Shown here piece after piece: positions 2,052 to 37,971 of a stretch of DNA of 37,971 bases. The translations under genes and the position numbers were made by a program. Origin of the DNA: an uncultured Clostridia bacterium (GTDB taxonomy: Bacteria; Bacillota; Clostridia; Oscillospirales; Ruminococcaceae); contig CAMVGH010000015.1 in assembly GCA_947166945.1 (NCBI GenBank), positions 1-37,971 on the forward strand, given 5' to 3'. Numbering within the stretch: position 1 is the stretch's first letter; the number at the start of each line of letters is the position of its first letter. The notes beneath the pieces are model-generated. The model did not search any database. It was not told the origin of the DNA and saw only the letters and a program-made list of their open reading frames with translations.

Positions 2052-3423
2052 TGAAGCGGCGAGAATGGACTTCATACTCGCCGTGATCAACGAACACAGC
2101 TCTTCCCCGCTGTTTCGGGTGGCGAGAGACGCGGAGATGTATTATCGGCACTTAAACCCGACGATCATGAAGGCGCAGAAATTCATCTATGACGCTATCG
2201 GGCGGTCGGTGCCGGACATCTACTCGGCGAACAACAAAATCCCGAGCCGGTATTATTTTTACTTTGTCACTCAGGAAGTGGAGCACCTTCTCGGGAACGG
2301 CGTTTCATTCTCCGACATGGCTGTTAAGGACCGTCTTGGGGAGAAATTCGATGAGAAAATGTCCGAGCTGGCTGTCCGGGCGATCAACGGCGGCGTTGCG
2401 TTCGGGTTCTGGAACGTGGATCATTTAGAGGTGTTTCCGGTCGCCGGGTTCGATTCTCCCTCTTTCGCGCCGATATACGACGAAGAGAACGGGGCGCTGA
2501 TGGCCGGGGTGCGTTGGTGGTCTCTCGGTGCGCAGAAGCCGCTCAGGTGCACTCTGTATGAGCCGGACGGATTTACCGAATACATCCGTCGTGAGGGCGA
2601 GGACATAACCATACTGCAAGAGAAGCGGGATTATGTCATGGTCGTCGGTCGGTCGGAGGTATCCGGGGTGGAGATATTGAACGGGTACAACTATCCCACT
2701 CTGCCGATTATCCCGCTGTTCAACATCAACAGGCAGTCGGAAATTGTCGGGGGACGGGAAACGATTGACGCTTATGATCTCATGGCGTCCGCTCTGGTCA
2801 ATAACATCGACGACGCGAATCTGATATACTGGATCATCAAAAATGCCGGTGGAATGGACGACGCGGATGACGCTGAATTTGTCCGCCGTCTGAAAACGCT
2901 GCATGTGGCGCACGTTGACGGAGCGGCGGGGACGGAGATATCCTCTCACTCAATCGAAGCGCCGTTTGAGGCGAACGAAACCGCGCTGAAACGGCTCCGG
3001 TCTCAGCTGTTCGATGATTTCATGGCGCTGGACGTGAAGGAGATCGCCTCCGGGGCGGTCACGGCTACTCAGATCGAGGCGGCTTACGAACCGTTGACAA
3101 GCAAGGTCGATATGTTTGAGCATTGCGTGAGCGAGTTTATCCTTTCTCTGCTCTCTCTGCTGGGGATCGATGACAAGCCGACATACACCCGGTCGAAGAT
3201 CGCGAATAAGGGGGAAGAAATTCAGAACCTTGTCACGGCGGCGGATTATCTGTCGGCGGATTACATCACGGGCAAGGTGCTTGAAGTCATGGGCGACATC
3301 GACAAGGTTGAGGAAGTCAAAGTGCAGAGAGAAACCGAAGAAGCGCGGAGATACGCGTCGGGGCAGTCTGACGAAGGCGATGACGAAAACGACGACAAAT
3401 TTGACAACGGCGGTGAAGTCTGA
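2014..3423 (+). CDS. Portal protein (SPP1 gp6-like)
   Basis: A 469-residue protein of the size and style of SPP1 gp6-type portals, which form the dodecameric DNA gate at one capsid vertex. Visible features are the N-terminal helical segment, the central NGYNYPTLPIIPLFN stretch and a GAVTATQIEA stretch typical of these portals, and an acidic C-terminus. The start is TTG at 2014, 8 nt after GGGAGG; it overlaps the terL stop by 38 bp. The stop overlaps the next ATG (TGATG), suggesting translational coupling to the minor head protein. Confidence 0.88.
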   Translation: MKTYQDLVTLGDNEAARMDFILAVINEHSSSPLFRVARDAEMYYRHLNPTIMKAQKFIYDAIGRSVPDIYSANNKIPSRYYFYFVTQEVEHLLGNGVSFSDMAVKDRLGEKFDEKMSELAVRAINGGVAFGFWNVDHLEVFPVAGFDSPSFAPIYDEENGALMAGVRWWSLGAQKPLRCTLYEPDGFTEYIRREGEDITILQEKRDYVMVVGRSEVSGVEILNGYNYPTLPIIPLFNINRQSEIVGGRETIDAYDLMASALVNNIDDANLIYWIIKNAGGMDDADDAEFVRRLKTLHVAHVDGAAGTEISSHSIEAPFEANETALKRLRSQLFDDFMALDVKEIASGAVTATQIEAAYEPLTSKVDMFEHCVSEFILSLLSLLGIDDKPTYTRSKIANKGEEIQNLVTAADYLSADYITGKVLEVMGDIDKVEEVKVQRETEEARRYASGQSDEGDDENDDKFDNGGEV

Positions 3424-4397
3424 TGGCGGAGAACGTATTTGACGAGGCTCACATCGCGGCGGACAAAGAGATCGCGCGGATGGAAAAGCGGCTTCGCAAA
3501 ATCTACAAAGACGCTTACGACGATATCGGCAAAGAGTGGAAAGAATATCTCGACGGCATGAACGCCGAGACGGAGCGGCTTCGGGAGATGATCAAAAACG
3601 CGAGCGATCCGAAGGAGAAGAAGAAGCTCGAAGCGGCGTATCAGCGGCACATGCGACTGAACACGACGATGCACCGACGATACAATCAGCTCACCGAGCG
3701 CGTCGCCCGCGAAATGTCGAACGTGAATCAGATGGCGGCGGATTACGTCAACGGCAGAGCGCCGAAGGTCTACGCCGACACGTGGAACTGGAACGGCAAG
3801 GACATCGAGGCTCAGACCGGGGCGGCGGTGAGGTTTGATATCATAAATCCGAACACGGTGAAAAATCTGGTGCAGGAAGACGCAAACTTTCTGCCTGAGT
3901 ACAAGATCGACCCGACGAAGGACGTGCCGTGGAATATGCGAGCCATCAACAGCGAGGTCGCGAAAGGCGTCATCGCCGGAGAACCGATTGACAAAATCAA
4001 GGCGCGCTTGCAGAACGTGTGCGATATGAACGAGAAATCGGCGGAGCGGGCGGCAAGAACCATTGTCACGGCTGCCGAAAATAAGGCGAGGATGGACACG
4101 GCACATGAGGCGCAGGAAAAGGGCGTCAAAATGCGGAAAATGTGGATATCTGCGCACGACAGCCGGGTAAGAGAATGGCATGAGCAAGCGGACGCTGATT
4201 ATCACAGCAGAGAGAAAGCCATAGATGTGGACGAGCCTTTTATCGTGAATGGCGAGGAGCTTATGTTTCCCGGCGATCCGTCAGGCTCTCCCGAAAATGT
4301 GTATAACTGCCGATGCTCGACATCTCATGTGATCGATGGATTCACGTCGAATCTTCCGCCCGAAAGGCGGGGAAAAATTAAGGTGACGTTCAGATGA
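3423..4397 (+). CDS. Minor head / head morphogenesis protein (SPP1 gp7, Mu F-like)
   Basis: The C-terminal half carries the hallmark of the family: MWISAHDSRVREWH, then a FIVNGEELMFPGDPSGSP segment, then NCRC. The N-terminal 130 residues are strongly helical and charged. Proteins of this type are carried in the head with the portal in SPP1-like phages. The start codon overlaps the portal stop by one base, and its own stop region overlaps the next ATG, so the three genes are a tight coupled block. Confidence 0.88.
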   Translation: MAENVFDEAHIAADKEIARMEKRLRKIYKDAYDDIGKEWKEYLDGMNAETERLREMIKNASDPKEKKKLEAAYQRHMRLNTTMHRRYNQLTERVAREMSNVNQMAADYVNGRAPKVYADTWNWNGKDIEAQTGAAVRFDIINPNTVKNLVQEDANFLPEYKIDPTKDVPWNMRAINSEVAKGVIAGEPIDKIKARLQNVCDMNEKSAERAARTIVTAAENKARMDTAHEAQEKGVKMRKMWISAHDSRVREWHEQADADYHSREKAIDVDEPFIVNGEELMFPGDPSGSPENVYNCRCSTSHVIDGFTSNLPPERRGKIKVTFR

Positions 4398-9224: not shown

Positions 9225-10394
9225 ATGGGAGTATCTTTATGGGCTGGAAAGAAAGCGGACGAGCTTATCGAAGCCGTCTGGGCGATATCCGGTTCTTATG
9301 ACACTCACTCGGCTTCATCCATCGTCGCCGCTCTGAGAGGCGGTCACGGCGAGGACATCCCGAACGGATCGGTATTTAAAGAGACGCACGAGACTTATGG
9401 CGACATATACTTCGTGACCCGCAGACACAACGTGGAGAAGGTTTCCGGCGATCCGGAGCGTCCGACCATCACGATCCAGCCGCTTTATCTGCTGTCATCG
9501 AACGGCGGGACTTCTGCCGCATCATTCCAGTATGACAGGCCGGAGGCGTTCGCTAAGGTCGCCGAGGCGATCCCGGCGGGGACGGTGTGCAAATTCAACA
9601 TTCCGTCGGCTTATTCTTCGTGGGCTGCCGGGACCTATCATTTCACGGCGACCGGAACTATAGCCGCCAGAGCAAAGCTTTGTCTTTCGATCAACGCCGA
9701 AACGGCTCTGCCGGGGGCGTATGTGAGAGTATACGACAGCGCGAAGGCGACCACGCATTCGGCGCAGTATGTCATCACAGCCGGTGACGGAGGGGCGACG
9801 GTCGACCTCGGAACGTTCGGGACTACCGCCAACCACGCGGCAAGAGTGAGCTATGGCAACAACAACGAAGCCGAATCGAACATATTCCAGTGGTTGAACG
9901 GCGACAGCGGCAATGGCTACATGGATTCGATCTTCGTCGAGAAGAATGACTACGACATGATGGACACTTCCTTCGTGTCTAAGAAGGGCTTCCTCGGCGG
10001 GTTCTCCGATGAGTTCCGATCGTATCTTGGTCTCGCTCATATCCACAACATCACGAACGGCGTATATGAGAACAGCGGATATAGCGTTAACTCGGAATAC
10101 GACCACAACGGGTATTTCTGGCTGCCGTCGGGGAAAGAAATTTATGGAACGAACGAGAACACCCACGAGGACAGCGAGACTCAGCTGCCGTACTACGCCG
10201 AGATAGGCACTGCGGACGCCGACAAGCTGATGTATGCTGAAAAAGCGACTTCTCCCACGTCATACTGGCTCCGCACGCCCCGCGCTTCCGACGCCCGCGG
10301 TGTGCGATTCTGCTACGCAGGGCGCGGCGGGGCGCTGCACCACTACGGTGCCAGCAGTGCCATCGGGGTCGCGCCGCTTGCAATTTTAGCGTAA
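9225..10394 (+). CDS. DGR target: variable receptor-binding protein with C-terminal C-type-lectin-like domain
   Basis: A 389-residue protein. The N-terminal 40 residues look like an attachment helix, the middle is a beta-rich jelly-roll-like segment, and the final 130 residues have the layout of the DUF6273/C-type-lectin-like targets of diversity-generating retroelements: YFWLPSGKEIYG, then YWLRTPRASDARG, and GVAPLAIL at the end. The last 40 residues are the variable region. In such phages the DGR rewrites this surface to change the receptor recognised. AAAGGAG precedes the ATG. A 7-bp hairpin follows the stop. Confidence 0.85.
   Translation: MGVSLWAGKKADELIEAVWAISGSYDTHSASSIVAALRGGHGEDIPNGSVFKETHETYGDIYFVTRRHNVEKVSGDPERPTITIQPLYLLSSNGGTSAASFQYDRPEAFAKVAEAIPAGTVCKFNIPSAYSSWAAGTYHFTATGTIAARAKLCLSINAETALPGAYVRVYDSAKATTHSAQYVITAGDGGATVDLGTFGTTANHAARVSYGNNNEAESNIFQWLNGDSGNGYMDSIFVEKNDYDMMDTSFVSKKGFLGGFSDEFRSYLGLAHIHNITNGVYENSGYSVNSEYDHNGYFWLPSGKEIYGTNENTHEDSETQLPYYAEIGTADADKLMYAEKATSPTSYWLRTPRASDARGVRFCYAGRGGALHHYGASSAIGVAPLAILA
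10264..10376 (+). repeat. DGR variable region (VR)
   Basis: 113 bp at the 3' end of the target gene that align without gaps to 10929-11041. There are 21 substitutions. In 11 codons the third base (C or T) is conserved and only the first two differ, the mark of AAY codons in a DGR template. The last 18 bp (10359-10376) are identical in both copies and would be the initiation of mutagenic homing sequence. Confidence 0.85.
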
Positions 10395-10409: not shown

Positions 10410-10427
10410 CCCGCCCGTTAGGGCGGG
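10410..10427. promoter_or_regulatory. Hairpin downstream of VR (DGR target recognition element)
   Basis: CCCGCCC pairs with GGGCGGG around a GTTA tetraloop: a 7-bp stem and 4-nt loop located 33 bp beyond the VR end. A stem of 7-10 bp with a 4-nt loop just 3' of VR matches the hairpin/cruciform known to mark the DGR target in Bordetella phage BPP-1 and relatives. No such hairpin follows the template-slot copy. Confidence 0.65.
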
Positions 10428-10448: not shown

Positions 10449-10901
10449 ATGTCCGTCCGAGCCAATGACAGAGGTCAGCATGAGCTTGAGGTGATCAACT
10501 ACAGCCGTCAGCTGACTCAGTACACATACGAGCGCGTCAGGGGCGGGGTGTTCCCGAAGGCTGACCGCTGGATCATGGCGAAGCATATCTGGGACGAGAT
10601 CGCCAACGCTCACGCGAAGATCATCCGGGCGAACGCCATCCGGGTCGAAACCGCCGAAGACGCGGCTCGTAGACTGCTGATGGAGAAGGAAGCCATCGGG
10701 CATCTTGACGCCGCCGTATCGCTGATAGACATCTGCAACGTCGTGGGGCTTATTTCAGACGACAGGGCGGATTTCTGGACGGGATTGGCGACAAAGACGC
10801 AGAATTTTGCGAAAGCGTGGCTAAAATCGGACAGACAGGCGTATAAACCTCTGCTGGTTAAATTAGTATCTGACTCACAATCGGATAGGGGAAACGGCTA
10901 A
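10449..10901 (+). CDS. avd: Avd, DGR accessory variability determinant
   Basis: A 150-residue all-helical protein with the features of the Avd four-helix bundle (RGGVFPKADRWIMAKHIWDE, then a long helix RVETAEDAARRLLMEKEAIGHLDAAVSLID). Avd forms a pentamer that binds the reverse transcriptase and is needed for mutagenic retrohoming. Its position between the variable gene and the template/RT is canonical. The ribosome site is GAGAGG. Confidence 0.85.
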   Translation: MSVRANDRGQHELEVINYSRQLTQYTYERVRGGVFPKADRWIMAKHIWDEIANAHAKIIRANAIRVETAEDAARRLLMEKEAIGHLDAAVSLIDICNVVGLISDDRADFWTGLATKTQNFAKAWLKSDRQAYKPLLVKLVSDSQSDRGNG

Positions 10902-10928: not shown

Positions 10929-11041
10929 ACTGGCTCCGCACTCCCAACGCTTCCTACGCGTTCACTGTGCGATTCTGCTACACAGGGCACGGCGGGGCGC
11001 TGACCAGCGGCAGTGCCCTCACTGCCATCGGGGTCGCGCCG
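10929..11041 (+). repeat. DGR template-slot repeat (TR position) lacking an AAY-rich template
   Basis: This copy lies between avd and the reverse transcriptase, exactly where the template belongs. It is non-coding here: no start codon, and a stop at 10886 in its frame. Compared with VR it differs at 21 positions, of which only 8 are A in this copy, so the present VR cannot have come from it by A-only mutagenesis. The codons at variable positions (aac, tac, ttc, act, cac, acc, agc, ggc, ctc, act) look like mutated AAY. Both copies may derive from a lost template. Confidence 0.75.
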
Positions 11042-11195
11042 ATTGGGGGAACTGCCTGATTCAAGTACCGGAAGGGAAAGCCGAGCGTCTCCCGCAAGGA
11101 GTTGTTTTCCCGCTTCCCGGCGCAAGACCGGGAGCGAAAACCGTCAGGGACGCGGAGGGGATATGTCCTCAAAACTATAAGCCCTGATCAACACT

Positions 11196-12290
11196 ATGGA
11201 CAATCACGATTATTTTGACAAAGCCCTGACCTACGGCAGTATGCGGAAGGCTCTCCGCCGGTGCTGCCGAAACGTCAGGTGGAAGGACAGCGTCGTCGGA
11301 TACGAGCTTCACGCTCCGCAGAACACGCACAAGCTGATAGATTCTTTCCGGGACGGCAGTTACCGAATCAGTCCGTATCAGCGGTTCACGGTGTATGAGC
11401 CGAAGAAACGGGAGATTCTCGCGACGAGGATCGCCGACAGACAGTTTCAGATGTCGCTGTGTCAGGCGGGGCTATATGACGATTTCGTCGAGCATTTCAT
11501 CTATGACAACTGCGCCTGTCAGATCGGCAAAGGGACGGATTTCGCGATAAAGCGGCTGAAACATCATATGGCGGAGTATTACCGCGATCATGGCTCGGAC
11601 GGATGGGTGCTGGCTCTGGATATACACCATTTCTTTCCGTCCACCCGTCATGATGTGGCGAAGGCAGCGGTAAAAAAGCGGATAAGCGATAAGCGTGCGG
11701 CTGATTACGTCTGCGGCGTTATCGACAGCTTTGGCGGCGACAATGGCATCGGTCTGGGCAGTCAGATATCGCAGCTCGTCGAACTCGCGGTGCTGGACGA
11801 TCTCGACCACTATATCAAGGAGCGGCTGAGAGTACGGCATTACATCCGGTATATGGACGATCTGCGGCTGATACATCATGACCGGGAATTTCTCCGGCGA
11901 TGCTGGTGTCAGATCGACGACAAACTCGGCGAGATCGGATTCGAGCTTAACCGCAAATCGACGATGTACCCGCTCAGGCAGGGCGTTAAGTTTCTGCAAT
12001 GGCGGCTTTGCTGCAAATCGACCGGAAAGATCATCCTGAGGATGAACGGAAAGAAGGTCAGCAGAGAGCGGCGGAGGATACGGAAGATTCTGCGCAAAGA
12101 GGTTGACGGAGAGTTTACACAAGGGACAGCGTATAACAGTCTTACGGCATGGAGAGCGAACGCCGCGCGAGGGAACGAGTGGCGGCGGCAGATAAACATG
12201 AGAAACTATTACTATACCACGAAAGCGGGGTTAAGACATGGCGAAAATCACAGCGGCGGACAACTACCGGCTCCTCAAGCTGGAGCATGA
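11196..12290 (+). CDS. DGR reverse transcriptase
   Basis: A 364-residue reverse transcriptase that copies the template RNA with errors at adenines. Catalytic motifs are visible: motif A LALDIHHFFPS (Asp 142), the DGR-type motif GIGLGSQISQ (residues 184-192) in place of the usual retroviral QG motif, and YMDD at 219-222. N-terminal RT motifs (YQRFTVYEPKKREI) and a C-terminal thumb-like region are present, so it seems intact. It follows the template slot by about 155 bp. The next small gene begins inside its 3' end. Confidence 0.92.
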   Translation: MDNHDYFDKALTYGSMRKALRRCCRNVRWKDSVVGYELHAPQNTHKLIDSFRDGSYRISPYQRFTVYEPKKREILATRIADRQFQMSLCQAGLYDDFVEHFIYDNCACQIGKGTDFAIKRLKHHMAEYYRDHGSDGWVLALDIHHFFPSTRHDVAKAAVKKRISDKRAADYVCGVIDSFGGDNGIGLGSQISQLVELAVLDDLDHYIKERLRVRHYIRYMDDLRLIHHDREFLRRCWCQIDDKLGEIGFELNRKSTMYPLRQGVKFLQWRLCCKSTGKIILRMNGKKVSRERRRIRKILRKEVDGEFTQGTAYNSLTAWRANAARGNEWRRQINMRNYYYTTKAGLRHGENHSGGQLPAPQAGA

Positions 12291-21683: not shown

Positions 21684-22565
21684 ATGTCTATAACTGCAAG
21701 CGAGATGACACCCGCCGACATCGCGGCTGTCACCAATAACGGCGGATCAGGCTCCGGCTTCGGATGGGGCGGAGACGGCGGCTGGTGGATTATACTGCTG
21801 TTCCTCTTCATGCTCAACGGCGGATGGGGCAACGGCTTCGGCGGAGGCTATGGAGGCTTCATGCCGTGGATGTACGCCGGGCAGACCAACACCAACAACG
21901 ATGTTCAGCGCGGTTTCGACCAGAATTATGTAATGACCGGGATCAACGGCATTCAGAACGCCGTCAACAACGGCTTCGGGAACGTATCGACCCAGCTGTG
22001 TAACGGCTTCGCCGGAGTAAATCAGGCTGTCTCCAACGGCTTCGCTCAGGCGGAGATCGCCGCCAACAGCCGTCAGATGGCGGACATGAATCAGATGTTC
22101 GGGCTCCAGTCGGCGCTCCAGAACTGCTGCTGCGAGAATCGTGCCGCGACCGCCGATCTGAAATACACCGTCGCGACCGAGGCGTGCAATGACCGTGCCG
22201 CCGTGACGAACGCGCTTCAGGCCGTTTCGACTCAGAATGCCGCCAATACAAACACCCTGCTCAACGCGATCACCAGCGGCATACAGTCCATCAAGGACCA
22301 GAACTGCCAGAATCAGATCGAGCAGAAGAACGACACAATCGCTCAGCTCCGCTCCGAGCTTATGTACTCTCGCGGGCAGGCTTCGCAGGATGTTCAGACG
22401 GCGAGAATCCTTGCCGGACAGAACAGCGAGATCGACGCCATGTATAACCGCCTGAGAGATTGCCCGGTCGGGACTATGCCGGTCTACGGAAACCAGCCGA
22501 TCTTCACGTGCCCCGTGAACAACGCCTATAACAACAGCGGTTGTCCGTGCGGTTGCGCTGCGTGA
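21684..22565 (+). CDS. Gly-rich, hydrophobic-patch coiled-coil protein, unknown
   Basis: 293 residues. Residues 20-65 are Gly and Trp rich with a hydrophobic core (WWIILLFLFMLNGGWG), then Asn/Gly repeats (FGNVSTQLCNGFAGVNQAVSNGF), a Cys-rich spot (NCCCENR), a long coiled-coil (QIEQKNDTIAQLRSEL) and a Cys-rich end (CPCGCAA). It could be a membrane-associated or pore-forming virion protein. Similar proteins recur in Clostridia phages without a known role. Confidence 0.65.
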   Translation: MSITASEMTPADIAAVTNNGGSGSGFGWGGDGGWWIILLFLFMLNGGWGNGFGGGYGGFMPWMYAGQTNTNNDVQRGFDQNYVMTGINGIQNAVNNGFGNVSTQLCNGFAGVNQAVSNGFAQAEIAANSRQMADMNQMFGLQSALQNCCCENRAATADLKYTVATEACNDRAAVTNALQAVSTQNAANTNTLLNAITSGIQSIKDQNCQNQIEQKNDTIAQLRSELMYSRGQASQDVQTARILAGQNSEIDAMYNRLRDCPVGTMPVYGNQPIFTCPVNNAYNNSGCPCGCAA

Positions 22566-22579
22566 CGAGGTGATCCCAT

Positions 22580-23041
22580 ATGGCAGAATATGTAGCCAAT
22601 GCCGAACAGCTTGTCGAGCTTAATACGCCGATACTGTTCACGGCTTCTATCCCGTGTCCGAGGGGATATGTGTACCATCAGGACGAATCAGGGATTTTTA
22701 TTCTCAAGGGGATCGTCTCAAACCCGAACGGATGCAAGGCGAGATATCAGGTGACCTTTAACGGCAACATCGCGATCCCGACAGGGGGCGAGGTAACGCC
22801 GATAGCCGTTGCGATAGCCGAGAACGGAGAGCCAAGGCAGACGAGCAGGGCAATATACCCTGCCGCCGCCGTGGACGTGTACGGCAATGTGACCAGTACC
22901 GCGATCATTGATGTGCCGAGGGGCTGTTGCTTTTCGGTGTCAGTCCGCTATGTCAGCGGCATAACCGGCGAAGCGGCGACCGTTCCGACGCCGGAGATCG
23001 AGGTCATAAATGCGAACCTTGTAATCAACCGAATAGCGTGA
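22580..23041 (+). CDS. Beta-sandwich protein of the unknown cassette
   Basis: 153 residues, predicted nearly all beta: LVELNTPILFTASIPCPRGY, YQVTFNGNIAIPTGGEVTPI, DVPRGCCFSVSVRYVSG and a final IEVINANLVINRIA. There is no signal peptide. The pattern suggests a jelly-roll that may decorate the capsid or form a trimer. GAGGTGA is in the leader. It sits between the Gly-rich coiled-coil gene and a charged gene. Confidence 0.65.
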   Translation: MAEYVANAEQLVELNTPILFTASIPCPRGYVYHQDESGIFILKGIVSNPNGCKARYQVTFNGNIAIPTGGEVTPIAVAIAENGEPRQTSRAIYPAAAVDVYGNVTSTAIIDVPRGCCFSVSVRYVSGITGEAATVPTPEIEVINANLVINRIA

Positions 23042-23051
23042 GGACGAAACG

Positions 23052-23459
23052 ATGAAAGCATTACACGATCTTAAAGAAATGCTCGAACAGGAAATAAAAG
23101 AGATTTCCAACAAGGGCGAGCTGACCGCCGGAAGTCTCGATACCGTAGACAAGCTGACGCACTCGCTGAAATCAATCGAGACCATTATCGCCATGAGCGG
23201 CGAGGGTGAATATTCGCAGAGGGACGGCAGAGGCGGAAACAGCTACAACGACGGCGGAAACATGGGCGGAGGTTACAGCGGATATTATCCGCGATACGCC
23301 TACGCCCGAAATCAGCGCCGCTCCTCGAACGGTAGATACAGCCGGGACGACGGCAGAGAAGCCATGATCGAGAAACTGGAAGACATGATGGAGGACGCTC
23401 CCGACGATAAGACGAGGAACGCAATCCAGAAATGCATCTCTCAGATGGAGCGGGACTGA
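23052..23459 (+). CDS. Charged protein with Gly/Tyr-rich linker
   Basis: 135 residues: an N-terminal coiled helix (LHDLKEMLEQEIKEISNKGE), a low-complexity Gly/Asn/Tyr/Arg centre (GGNMGGGYSGYYPRYAYARN) and a C-terminal acidic helix (MIEKLEDMMEDAPDDKTRN). The tripartite helix-linker-helix form suggests a tether. Function unknown; part of the cassette. Confidence 0.6.
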   Translation: MKALHDLKEMLEQEIKEISNKGELTAGSLDTVDKLTHSLKSIETIIAMSGEGEYSQRDGRGGNSYNDGGNMGGGYSGYYPRYAYARNQRRSSNGRYSRDDGREAMIEKLEDMMEDAPDDKTRNAIQKCISQMERD

Positions 23460-25088: not shown

Positions 25089-25119
25089 AAAAAGCCGAGA
25101 AAAAAATCTCGGCTTTTTT
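25089..25119 (+). terminator. Intrinsic terminator after accessory unit 1
   Basis: AAAGCCGAGA pairs with TCTCGGCTTT around AAAAAA, followed by T residues. Nearly the same terminator occurs at 26722. Confidence 0.92.
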
Positions 25120-25140
25120 CAACTTTTTTTCAAAAAGGTA

Positions 25141-25169
25141 TTGACATTTACATCCAAATGTGGTATAAT
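25141..25169 (+). promoter_or_regulatory. Consensus promoter of accessory unit 2, with operator-like spacer
   Basis: TTGACA, 17 bp, TATAAT. Between -35 and -10 lies ACATTT-ACATCC-AAATGT (25144-25161), an inverted repeat with a 6-bp centre. The promoter at 26771 has the exact reverse complement of this element. Confidence 0.92.
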
Positions 25170-25219
25170 ATATACAGTCAAAGAGAGAACCACATAGAAA
25201 CAACAGAGAGGTACATAAA

Positions 25220-26721: not shown

Positions 26722-26749
26722 AAGCCGAGAAAAAATCTCGGCTTTTTTC
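26722..26749 (+). terminator. Intrinsic terminator after accessory unit 2
   Basis: AAGCCGAGA pairs with TCTCGGCTT around AAAAA, followed by T residues. With the following promoter it is a near copy of 25089-25169. Confidence 0.92.
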
Positions 26750-26770
26750 AAACTTTTTTCCAAAAAGGTA

Positions 26771-26799
26771 TTGACATTTGGATGTAAATGTGGTATAAT
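26771..26799 (+). promoter_or_regulatory. Consensus promoter of accessory unit 3, with inverted operator core
   Basis: TTGACA, 17 bp, TATAAT. The spacer carries ACATTT-GGATGT-AAATGT (26774-26791), the reverse complement of the element in the promoter at 25141. Confidence 0.92.
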
Positions 26800-26850
26800 A
26801 TATACAGTTAAGAGAGAACACCAACCAAAACCAAAAAGGAGACCAGAATC

Positions 26851-31678: not shown

Positions 31679-31862
31679 CGAACTGTCGAGCGCTTTCAAG
31701 GCGCAGTCATGGGTGATATACGACGGCAAACGATGCTTTTTGCAGGGTGTGCTCTCGCAATGGATCAACGGCAGGATCAAGACGTCGGCAATCATAGAAG
31801 ACCCGACAACGGAATCGAGAACAATATATCAGGTCAAGCCGGAAGATATCCGACCGGCGTGA
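31668..31862 (+). CDS. Small hypothetical protein
   Basis: 64 residues, beta-rich: MTINELSSAFKAQSWVIYDG, QWINGRIKTSAIIEDP and YQVKPEDIRPA. SH3-like strand order is possible but not certain. It overlaps the previous gene by 11 bp and precedes the annealing protein gene by 14 bp. Confidence 0.6.
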   Translation: MTINELSSAFKAQSWVIYDGKRCFLQGVLSQWINGRIKTSAIIEDPTTESRTIYQVKPEDIRPA

Positions 31863-31876
31863 AAGGAGATCAAATC

Positions 31877-32773
31877 ATGGATAACACAGCTATCGCGAAC
31901 TACAACAACAGCGTCGTGCCGAGCACGCTGACGACCTATGATGTTTTTACAAATCCGAACGTGTATAAAACCTGCGAGTTTCTCGCTCAGTCAAATTTTG
32001 TCCCGGACTCCTACAGAGGAAAGCCGCAGGACGTAATGGCGGCGCTATCAATCAGTATAACTCACCATATGGACGCCTTTACGGTGATGCAGAATCTCCA
32101 GATGGTCAAAGGTAATGCTCGCTGGAAGTCGGACTACACTATTGGAGCTATAAATTCGAGCGGACTGTATGTGGGCAATCTCAAATTTGAGATTAAGCAC
32201 AACGACGCCGGAGAAGCCGTCGAATGCACGGCTTGGGCAATCGAAAAGGCAACAGGCGAAAAGGTCTTCGGAAGCCCGATAACGTGGGATATGGTCGTAA
32301 ACGAGGGGTGGAACAAGGACAGCACGACAAAATCGGGCTATGTGCAGAAATCAAAATGGAACACCATGCGCGAACAGATGTTCCGTTATCGCGCCGCCGT
32401 ATTCTTTGCTCGGACGAATTGCCCGGAGGTGCTTATGGGATATTATACGGCAGACGAGGGCGACGATATTGCGGCAAATCAGGAATTGCAGTATGAGGAC
32501 AAGACCGCTCCGGCTCCAGCTCCGGCAGAACCCGAACAGCCGAGACAGCCGTCGCCGAAGATGCGGCTTTGGAATGCCGTCCTTGAGCAGGTCGAGGGCG
32601 ACGAGGCGAAGGCTGCGGATATATGCAAGGCGGTCGTCGGCGGTCAGACCGTCACCGAGGATAATATCGGCGGGATGATCATTGAGGCATCCAAAATGAT
32701 CACCGAGTCGGCGAGCAAGAGCGAGACCGAGCCGGAGGAAGTGCCGGAACATCTGAGTGAGGAACCGTATTGA
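31877..32773 (+). CDS. RecT/Bet-like single-strand annealing protein
   Basis: 298 residues. The core reads ISITHHMDAFTVMQNLQMVK, ARWKSDYTIGAINSSGLYVG, WAIEKATGEKVFGSPITWDM and NTMREQMFRYRAAVFFART, a RecT-superfamily pattern (surface Trp/Lys, then MLRYRA-like helix). The C-terminal 80 residues are Pro/Glu rich and acidic, as in proteins that bind partners such as SSB. I choose ATG 31877 after GAAAGGAGATCAAATC. No exonuclease partner is seen; the VRR-NUC and SSB genes lie nearby. Confidence 0.75.
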   Translation: MDNTAIANYNNSVVPSTLTTYDVFTNPNVYKTCEFLAQSNFVPDSYRGKPQDVMAALSISITHHMDAFTVMQNLQMVKGNARWKSDYTIGAINSSGLYVGNLKFEIKHNDAGEAVECTAWAIEKATGEKVFGSPITWDMVVNEGWNKDSTTKSGYVQKSKWNTMREQMFRYRAAVFFARTNCPEVLMGYYTADEGDDIAANQELQYEDKTAPAPAPAEPEQPRQPSPKMRLWNAVLEQVEGDEAKAADICKAVVGGQTVTEDNIGGMIIEASKMITESASKSETEPEEVPEHLSEEPY

Positions 32774-37259: not shown

Positions 37260-37918
37260 GGGTGAACACCCCGGATATTACATATCGTGTGGCAAAAGTG
37301 CAGGCGGATTACGATGTCAAGCTCGAACATTCCTGCGAACATTTTGTCGGGAGCATAGATATACCTGATGACGATAAATGGCATATCGGGCTGATTGTGG
37401 GGGGGAGCGCCACAGGCAAGAGCACTATTGCAAAAGAGCTGTTTCCCGATATTTATGTGAATGGATATAATTATACTCATAAATCGGTGATTGATGATAT
37501 GCCGTGCGATAATGTAAACCAAATCGAGAAGATGTTTTATGCTGTCGGCTTTGGCTCTGTCCCGTCATGGCTGAAACCATATGAGGTATTAAGCGAAGGC
37601 GAAAAAATGCGTGTTGATCTTGCACGTGCGATGCTTTCCAGCGATAGAGTGTGTTTTGACGAGTTTACGTCTGTCGTCGATAGGCAAGTGGCGCGCACGG
37701 CATGTATCGCTATTAAAAAAGCAATCATTGAAAATAAAATGCACTTTATAGCAGTTTCTTGTCATCGCGATATTATAGAATGGCTCACTCCGGATTGGGT
37801 GTTTGACACAAGCACGATGCAGACAAATTTTCATCCGGCCCGCGTCCTGAAAAAAGGTATTATATCAAAAGATGCGGGCGAGATGAATGGGAAATGTTTA
37901 GGCGTTATCACTATTTAA
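37238..37918 (+). CDS. ABC-type ATPase, N-terminal half of ATPase-GNAT protein
   Basis: 226 residues in the zero frame. Walker A GGSATGKST (55-63), signature LSEGE (118-122), Walker B VCFDE (138-142) with D-loop SVVD, and H-loop His 176 are all intact. The sequence is a soluble ABC ATPase with no membrane part. After residue 198 the zero frame gives an unrelated 28-residue tail, while the frame reached by a -1 shift gives GPRPEKRYYIKRC and a GNAT domain. The fused form is probably the functional one. The start is after AAGAAGG. Confidence 0.85.
   Translation: MPNFDIVRVNTPDITYRVAKVQADYDVKLEHSCEHFVGSIDIPDDDKWHIGLIVGGSATGKSTIAKELFPDIYVNGYNYTHKSVIDDMPCDNVNQIEKMFYAVGFGSVPSWLKPYEVLSEGEKMRVDLARAMLSSDRVCFDEFTSVVDRQVARTACIAIKKAIIENKMHFIAVSCHRDIIEWLTPDWVFDTSTMQTNFHPARVLKKGIISKDAGEMNGKCLGVITI
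37825..37879 (+). promoter_or_regulatory. Candidate -1 frameshift signal joining ABC ATPase and GNAT
   Basis: Slippery heptamer A-AAT-TTT (37825-37831) in the right frame, a 6-nt spacer, then a 6-bp stem GCCCGC (37838-37843) with GCGGGC (37874-37879) and a 30-nt loop. This is the standard layout of programmed -1 frameshift sites. Confidence 0.65.
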
Positions 37919-37971
37919 ATAGCGATTTATCTGCGTCGGCAACATGTTACGCATTGTACGACGACGATACA
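37917..37971. repeat. Right copy of 55-bp terminal direct repeat
   Basis: Identical to bases 1-55. The unique genome is therefore 37,916 bp. The ABC ATPase stop (37916-37918) lies at its first bases and the GNAT frame runs through it. Confidence 0.9.

Follow-up and report, generated by a model that had tools for sequence, protein, structure and literature searches.

A phage DGR whose template locus appears to have been rewritten by its own mutagenesis

Judging by sequence comparisons, the template of a DGR is apparently rewritten at times by the element's own mutagenesis. The case analysed here lies in a stretch of 37,971 nucleotides (the window), which is contig C15 of a 244-contig genome of an uncultured Clostridia bacterium. 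The slot at 10929-11041 is probably a real DGR template locus, the interior of which was replaced, by way of cDNA, with a product of the element's own adenine-specific mutagenesis. This reading is suggested by the template-type flanks of the slot, its interior resembling a variable region (VR), its independence from the present VR and A-specific changes found in two pairs of sister phages.

Target, Avd, slot, spacer and reverse transcriptase (RT) together form a phage DGR (Table 1). The RT is of DGR type by its RVT_1 match and by identities of up to 66% to RTs of loci with A-biased repeat pairs; the 66% value is for the RT of L003, a locus where 17 of 17 slot/VR mismatches are A in the slot. 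One repeat copy lies at the 3′-end of the target and the other is intergenic near the RT, with an Avd-like protein, present in many, not all, DGRs. The 3′-ends of the VR (IMH) and of the template (IMH*) differ, and the VR is followed by a GC hairpin of the type that, according to passages of PMC3240598, marks DGR targets. DUF6273 is the only domain recognised in the target by sequence, the VRs of DGRs being expected in a C-type lectin fold. The layout is that of the Bordetella phage BPP-1 DGR (mtd-avd-TR-brt), which has the same order of target, avd, template and RT, a VR at the 3′-end of the target followed by a GC hairpin, and template and VR ends that differ. In BPP-1, however, information flows from template to VR according to excerpts of PMC3240598 and PMC12875486, whereas the template locus of the window itself appears rewritten. 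Vibrio phages VP58.5 and VHML (NC_027981, NC_004456) likewise carry phage DGRs, but their templates are A-rich and alike.

Table 1. Features of the DGR locus and a recombination gene in the window
Feature	Position	Strand	Description
Target gene	9225..10394	+	389 aa, DUF6273 domain (PF19789, E 8.3e-10), VR at 3′-end
Variable region (VR)	10264..10376	+	repeat copy inside the 3′-end of the target
Hairpin 3′ of VR	10410..10427	.	7-bp GC stem, 4-nt loop; kept after VR in relatives
Avd-like protein	10449..10901	+	150 aa; phrog_3206, E 1.4e-14
Template slot with very probably diversified interior	10929..11041	+	second repeat copy, intergenic near RT
Template-type 3′-end and spacer up to RT	11042..11195	+	conserved blocks common to template loci of seven relatives
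Reverse transcriptase	11196..12290	+	364 aa, YMDD motif; PF00078 (RVT_1), E 1.9e-8
RecT-like single-strand annealing protein	31709..32773	+	phrog_561, E 2.6e-46

The two repeat copies are related beyond chance (E 3.7e-26) and are the only ones in the assembly. The original prediction was that the slot holds a diversified sequence and cannot template the present VR, and the comparison supports it. A recount confirmed 21 mismatches over 113 positions, with A in the slot at 8 of them, as well as the 11 codons in which the third base (C or T) is unchanged while the first, the second or both differ. Most mismatches in this DGR do not fall on adenines of the template copy, and this departure is the finding itself. 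The VR has A at only 4 of the 21 mismatches; an extended alignment differs at 22 of 117 positions, and the exact runs common to both copies measure 13 nt at the 5′-end and 19 nt at the 3′-end. With A in neither copy at 9 of its 21 differences, the pair resembles the VR-VR pairs of four two-target loci, which differ at 22, 19, 17 and 12 positions and lack A in both copies at 6, 6, 5 and 3 of these.

Several features set the slot apart from a second target. The base right after the shared stretch is A in the slot and in all seven templates of the relatives used as a reference (two of which, L004 and L006, carry the same template); three of the seven (L004, L006 and L083) also match the slot locus exactly over the ten bases ATTGGGGGAA. 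Spacer blocks are common to the slot and the template loci of the relatives, and the VR of the window ends as their VRs do. No inverted repeat of at least 6 nt was found after the slot in 11035-11105, and no plus-strand ORF of at least 60 aa covers the slot. Template-type flanks and spacer, together with the lack of a hairpin after the slot and of an ORF over it, identify it as a template locus rather than a second target.

Its interior was compared with the same seven templates. Of the 21 mismatches, 19 fall on the 30 positions where four or more of the seven have A (hypergeometric 5e-12); the other two (10277/10942 and 10295/10960) are at positions without A in most of them. The slot keeps 13 A's at these 30 positions and the VR keeps 9; both copies are changed at 13 positions and carry the same base at 6 of them. 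For comparison, 47.7% of the A's in AAY codons are still A in the VR over 104 TR-VR pairs, which were selected for at least 75% A mismatches. The 13 of 30 A's kept by the slot fit one round of mutagenesis about 20 times better than two. The 9 of 30 kept by the VR are low for one round (P 0.04), and the explanations we can offer are chance or wrongly guessed ancestral positions. Given its VR-like pattern and one-round A retention, the slot looks like another copy of an A-rich template, mutated once and independently of the VR, and we consider it highly likely that it truly holds a diversified sequence in the genome. The direction of change was set here with relatives whose RT identity is at most 66%, and none of the RT relatives proved to be a sister of the window phage.

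Direction can be read more closely in a pair of sister phages, L399 and L406, from IMG/VR samples 3300028213 and 3300028214. Over 1,500 nt (2261 to 3760), a stretch that takes in the VR-slot interval, slot and spacer and reaches into the RT, they show 15 differences, all in the slot; more differences are seen outside 2261-3760. By analogy with the layout of this DGR type, the VR-slot interval would include Avd. At 14 of the 15 positions the A is in L399 (changed to G at 10, to T at 3 and to C at 1), and the remaining difference is a T-to-A change, while the 60 nt on either side of the L406 slot contain 27 and 12 A's, with no changes relative to L399. L432, a phage 98.2% identical to L406 over 5.7 kb, has the same slot as L399, and the A-rich slot of L433 departs by two bases and two indels of one base each, so that of the four phages L406 alone has a rewritten slot. 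The L406 slot agrees with the sister templates at two non-A positions at which its own VR has another base, with changed sites on both sides; it is therefore no plain copy of that VR.

The second pair is less clean, since the flanks of L234 and its A-rich sister L199 differ at 10 of 240 positions. The 5′-flanks of L195 and L200 have diverged too far to give the direction of the 5′-flank changes in L234. The slots of L199 and L234 differ at 15 positions, 13 of them A in L199 and the other two common to the L234 VR. All five positions changed jointly in the L234 slot and VR carry the same base, as if the template had changed once, the VR had been made from the altered template and the slot had then changed again.

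Templates are normally stable, as slots are identical in 82 of 111 comparable sister pairs (at least 95% identity), and the hankyphage templates are reported as identical in a section of PMC12135933. Treponema denticola DGRs share with the present cases more than one template version within one species, but the difference described in extracts of PMC4891356 is between lineages about 81% identical or consists of a single silent T-to-C change, and neither is A-specific rewriting of the kind seen between sister genomes. One further pair, L372/L373, was rejected: 3 of 4 slot differences are at A, but the changed bases are common to the L373 VR. A Vibrio-phage-type template in L357 (2795-2910) has three A-to-G changes relative to seven relatives, VP58.5 and VHML among them, that keep A. 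This candidate was also set aside, as all 11 differences from VP58.5 over about 1.7 kb are transitions, 3 in the slot and 8 elsewhere, and ordinary mutation is possible.

How rare such slots are was estimated in two surveys of RT loci. When 54 RT relatives were each compared with themselves, without selecting on the base, 46 showed a slot/VR pair upstream of their RT and 8 gave no such pair. In 45 of the 46, at least 86% of the mismatches are A in the slot; the exception, L017, has A at 19 of 31 mismatches and a template that is still A-rich. The L017 template (within 3106-3848, with the same 31 VR/template differences) may have been exchanged rather than rewritten.

The larger survey comprised 400 RT loci, including the window and some duplicate contigs (the 399 others fall into 328 clusters at 99%). 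Near the RT, 304 loci (254 clusters) show an A- or T-biased pair; 89 have no pair of either kind, and 7 have only an unbiased codon-phased pair: the window, L406, L234, L158, L155, L257 and its duplicate L340. On reading, the templates of L155 and L257 (the same contig as L340) proved A-rich and were discarded as diversified slots; L154 and L115 were likewise dropped, with fewer A mismatches yet A-rich templates, and L122, with 20 of 20 mismatches T in one copy, is an ordinary pair on the other strand. L158 (3351-3737), from a Clostridia bin, has a diversified slot with 14 mismatches, A in one copy at 6 and in the other at 6; no close sister of it was found. In total, diversified slots are present in 4 of 311 loci with a pair, or 3 of 310 besides the window, a lower bound of uncertain quality, as pairs failing the phase filter were mostly not read. 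Left unread by letter were 18 of 27 loci with a near-RT pair but no biased pair, the loci L431, L440 and L496, and L076, L137, L253 and L397, whose screen rows also hold a biased pair. L431, L440 and L496 come from a later screen of nine rows; among the other six, L427 and L504 are the same contigs as L406 and L234. A-poor templates with only 6-10 slot/VR mismatches are seen in a group of three loci, L486 (slot near 2715), L458 (near 2626) and L468 (near 2727), which were not counted as cases; perhaps these are templates that have lost A's.

The original prediction offered three accounts of the slot: mutated cDNA homed into it, the true template lies elsewhere, or the slot is misassembled. A rewritten template, as in the first of these, fits best, given the sister phages with A-rich and rewritten templates. 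Error-prone cDNA would be made from the template transcript, would match its own locus at least as well as the VR, and would recombine back into that locus by a route that we infer. Most simply, this may have happened once, in the window phage or a recent ancestor. The altered template would still be usable, with fewer positions diversified. The further claim that an overwritten template would end or change diversification may be too strong as to ending, as the L234 VR seems to have been made from an altered template. Passages of PMC12875486 place the start of cDNA synthesis in the spacer, at the template 3′ junction, and its end in avd. A cDNA carrying template flanks would fit its own locus, which makes an occasional return plausible. 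Against this stands the slot's lack of the hairpin and VR-type end that direct cDNA. Portions of PMC3240598 attribute direction to a 21-bp segment of IMH that mismatches the template at 5 positions, and state that efficient homing needs a hairpin after the VR. In the text excerpted from PMC12875486, removing the repeat after the VR impaired repair severely, not completely, and cDNA entry was better with the complementary target strand as lagging-strand template. The RecT-like protein of the window is a possible, unproven helper of template rewriting. As a general helper it is unsupported, since phrog_561, the one RecT family searched for, was found in none of 30 other DGR records, L406, L234 and L357 among them.

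Instead, ordinary homologous recombination between the two repeats might have carried an earlier or sibling VR into the slot, with no new cDNA event at the template. We regard this as rather unlikely, although the slot interior is VR-like, the exact ends common to VR and slot could host crossovers, and the L406 changes are confined to the stretch shared with the VR, the 39 A's of its flanks being intact. Such copying fits poorly with the T at 10942 of the window slot, which is also present in five of the seven relatives' templates where the VR has G, or with the absence from the L406 slot of the two non-A bases of its own VR, for which another VR could be the donor. Chimeric assembly or a mixture of strains, in which VR-type reads were joined between template flanks, seems improbable and found no positive support, even though the VR is hypervariable and each of the four cases stems from a metagenome-type record or bin. 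The window may have been assembled with k=55, as its 55-bp terminal repeat suggests, and the exact runs common to slot and VR are short by that measure; if k was 55, there should be reads that link the template flanks with the diversified interior. Mixing should also put template sequence into VRs, yet pairs with three or fewer mismatches were seen near the RT in 0 of 399 loci.

It is very doubtful that the true template lies elsewhere and acts in trans, the slot being a relic or an extra recipient. The present VR indeed cannot derive from the slot. However, the search for another A-rich copy that the original prediction had proposed, carried out in the 3.39-Mb assembly of binned contigs (a bin that may be incomplete) with a masked 36-base pattern allowing up to 3 mismatches at fixed bases, returned no third copy, and the assembly holds no second related RT. 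The same pattern had 0 matches in viral_contigs, and the L083 template region matched only the slot at a strong E-value in the window's own genome. Point-mutation decay of a dead template is just as hard to credit: it could account for the two mismatches at positions without A in most relatives' templates, but is disfavoured by the A-specific pattern of the other 19, and the Avd and RT frames are open and the spacer blocks conserved.

In the usual picture, a DGR template is fixed and only the target changes. We give about even credence to the broader proposition that DGR templates are not constant, that their own mutagenised cDNA rewrites them in about 1% of loci (the 3 of 310 with a pair besides the window), sometimes stepwise, and that rewritten templates go on serving, as L234 suggests. 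If so, the end structures that send cDNA to the VR would act as a one-way valve that leaks, every leak would leave fewer positions open to diversification, and self-rewriting would limit how long a DGR keeps its range. It could also explain some reported pairs without adenine bias: passages of PMC6642488 give non-A substitutions in 46.3% of pairs, naming sequencing or assembly errors as one possible cause, and list 98 pairs (26 DGRs) in which every substitution is non-A. Rewritten templates would further provide a natural readout of DGR cDNA destinations, and sister genomes with A-rich and rewritten templates would make directionality directly testable. In the open-access literature searched, we recognised no report of natural rewriting of a DGR template.

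Some observations concern the surroundings of the locus. Among phage records, the window has one weak match, covering 11%, and its RT matches 5 of 59 other genomes (60 with its own), at best with 30% identity. Contig C18 of the same genome bin has further RVT_1 matches (85-831 and 22527-23354), unrelated to the DGR in a search with its RT. The window begins and ends with an exact 55-bp direct terminal repeat (1-55 and 37917-37971), like a circular phage contig. It also contains two 90-nt repeats that are 83% identical (25092-25181 and 26722-26811), each with an inverted repeat and a T run followed by TTGACA- and TATAAT-like boxes, the latter read by eye; these are putative duplicated terminator-promoter junctions.
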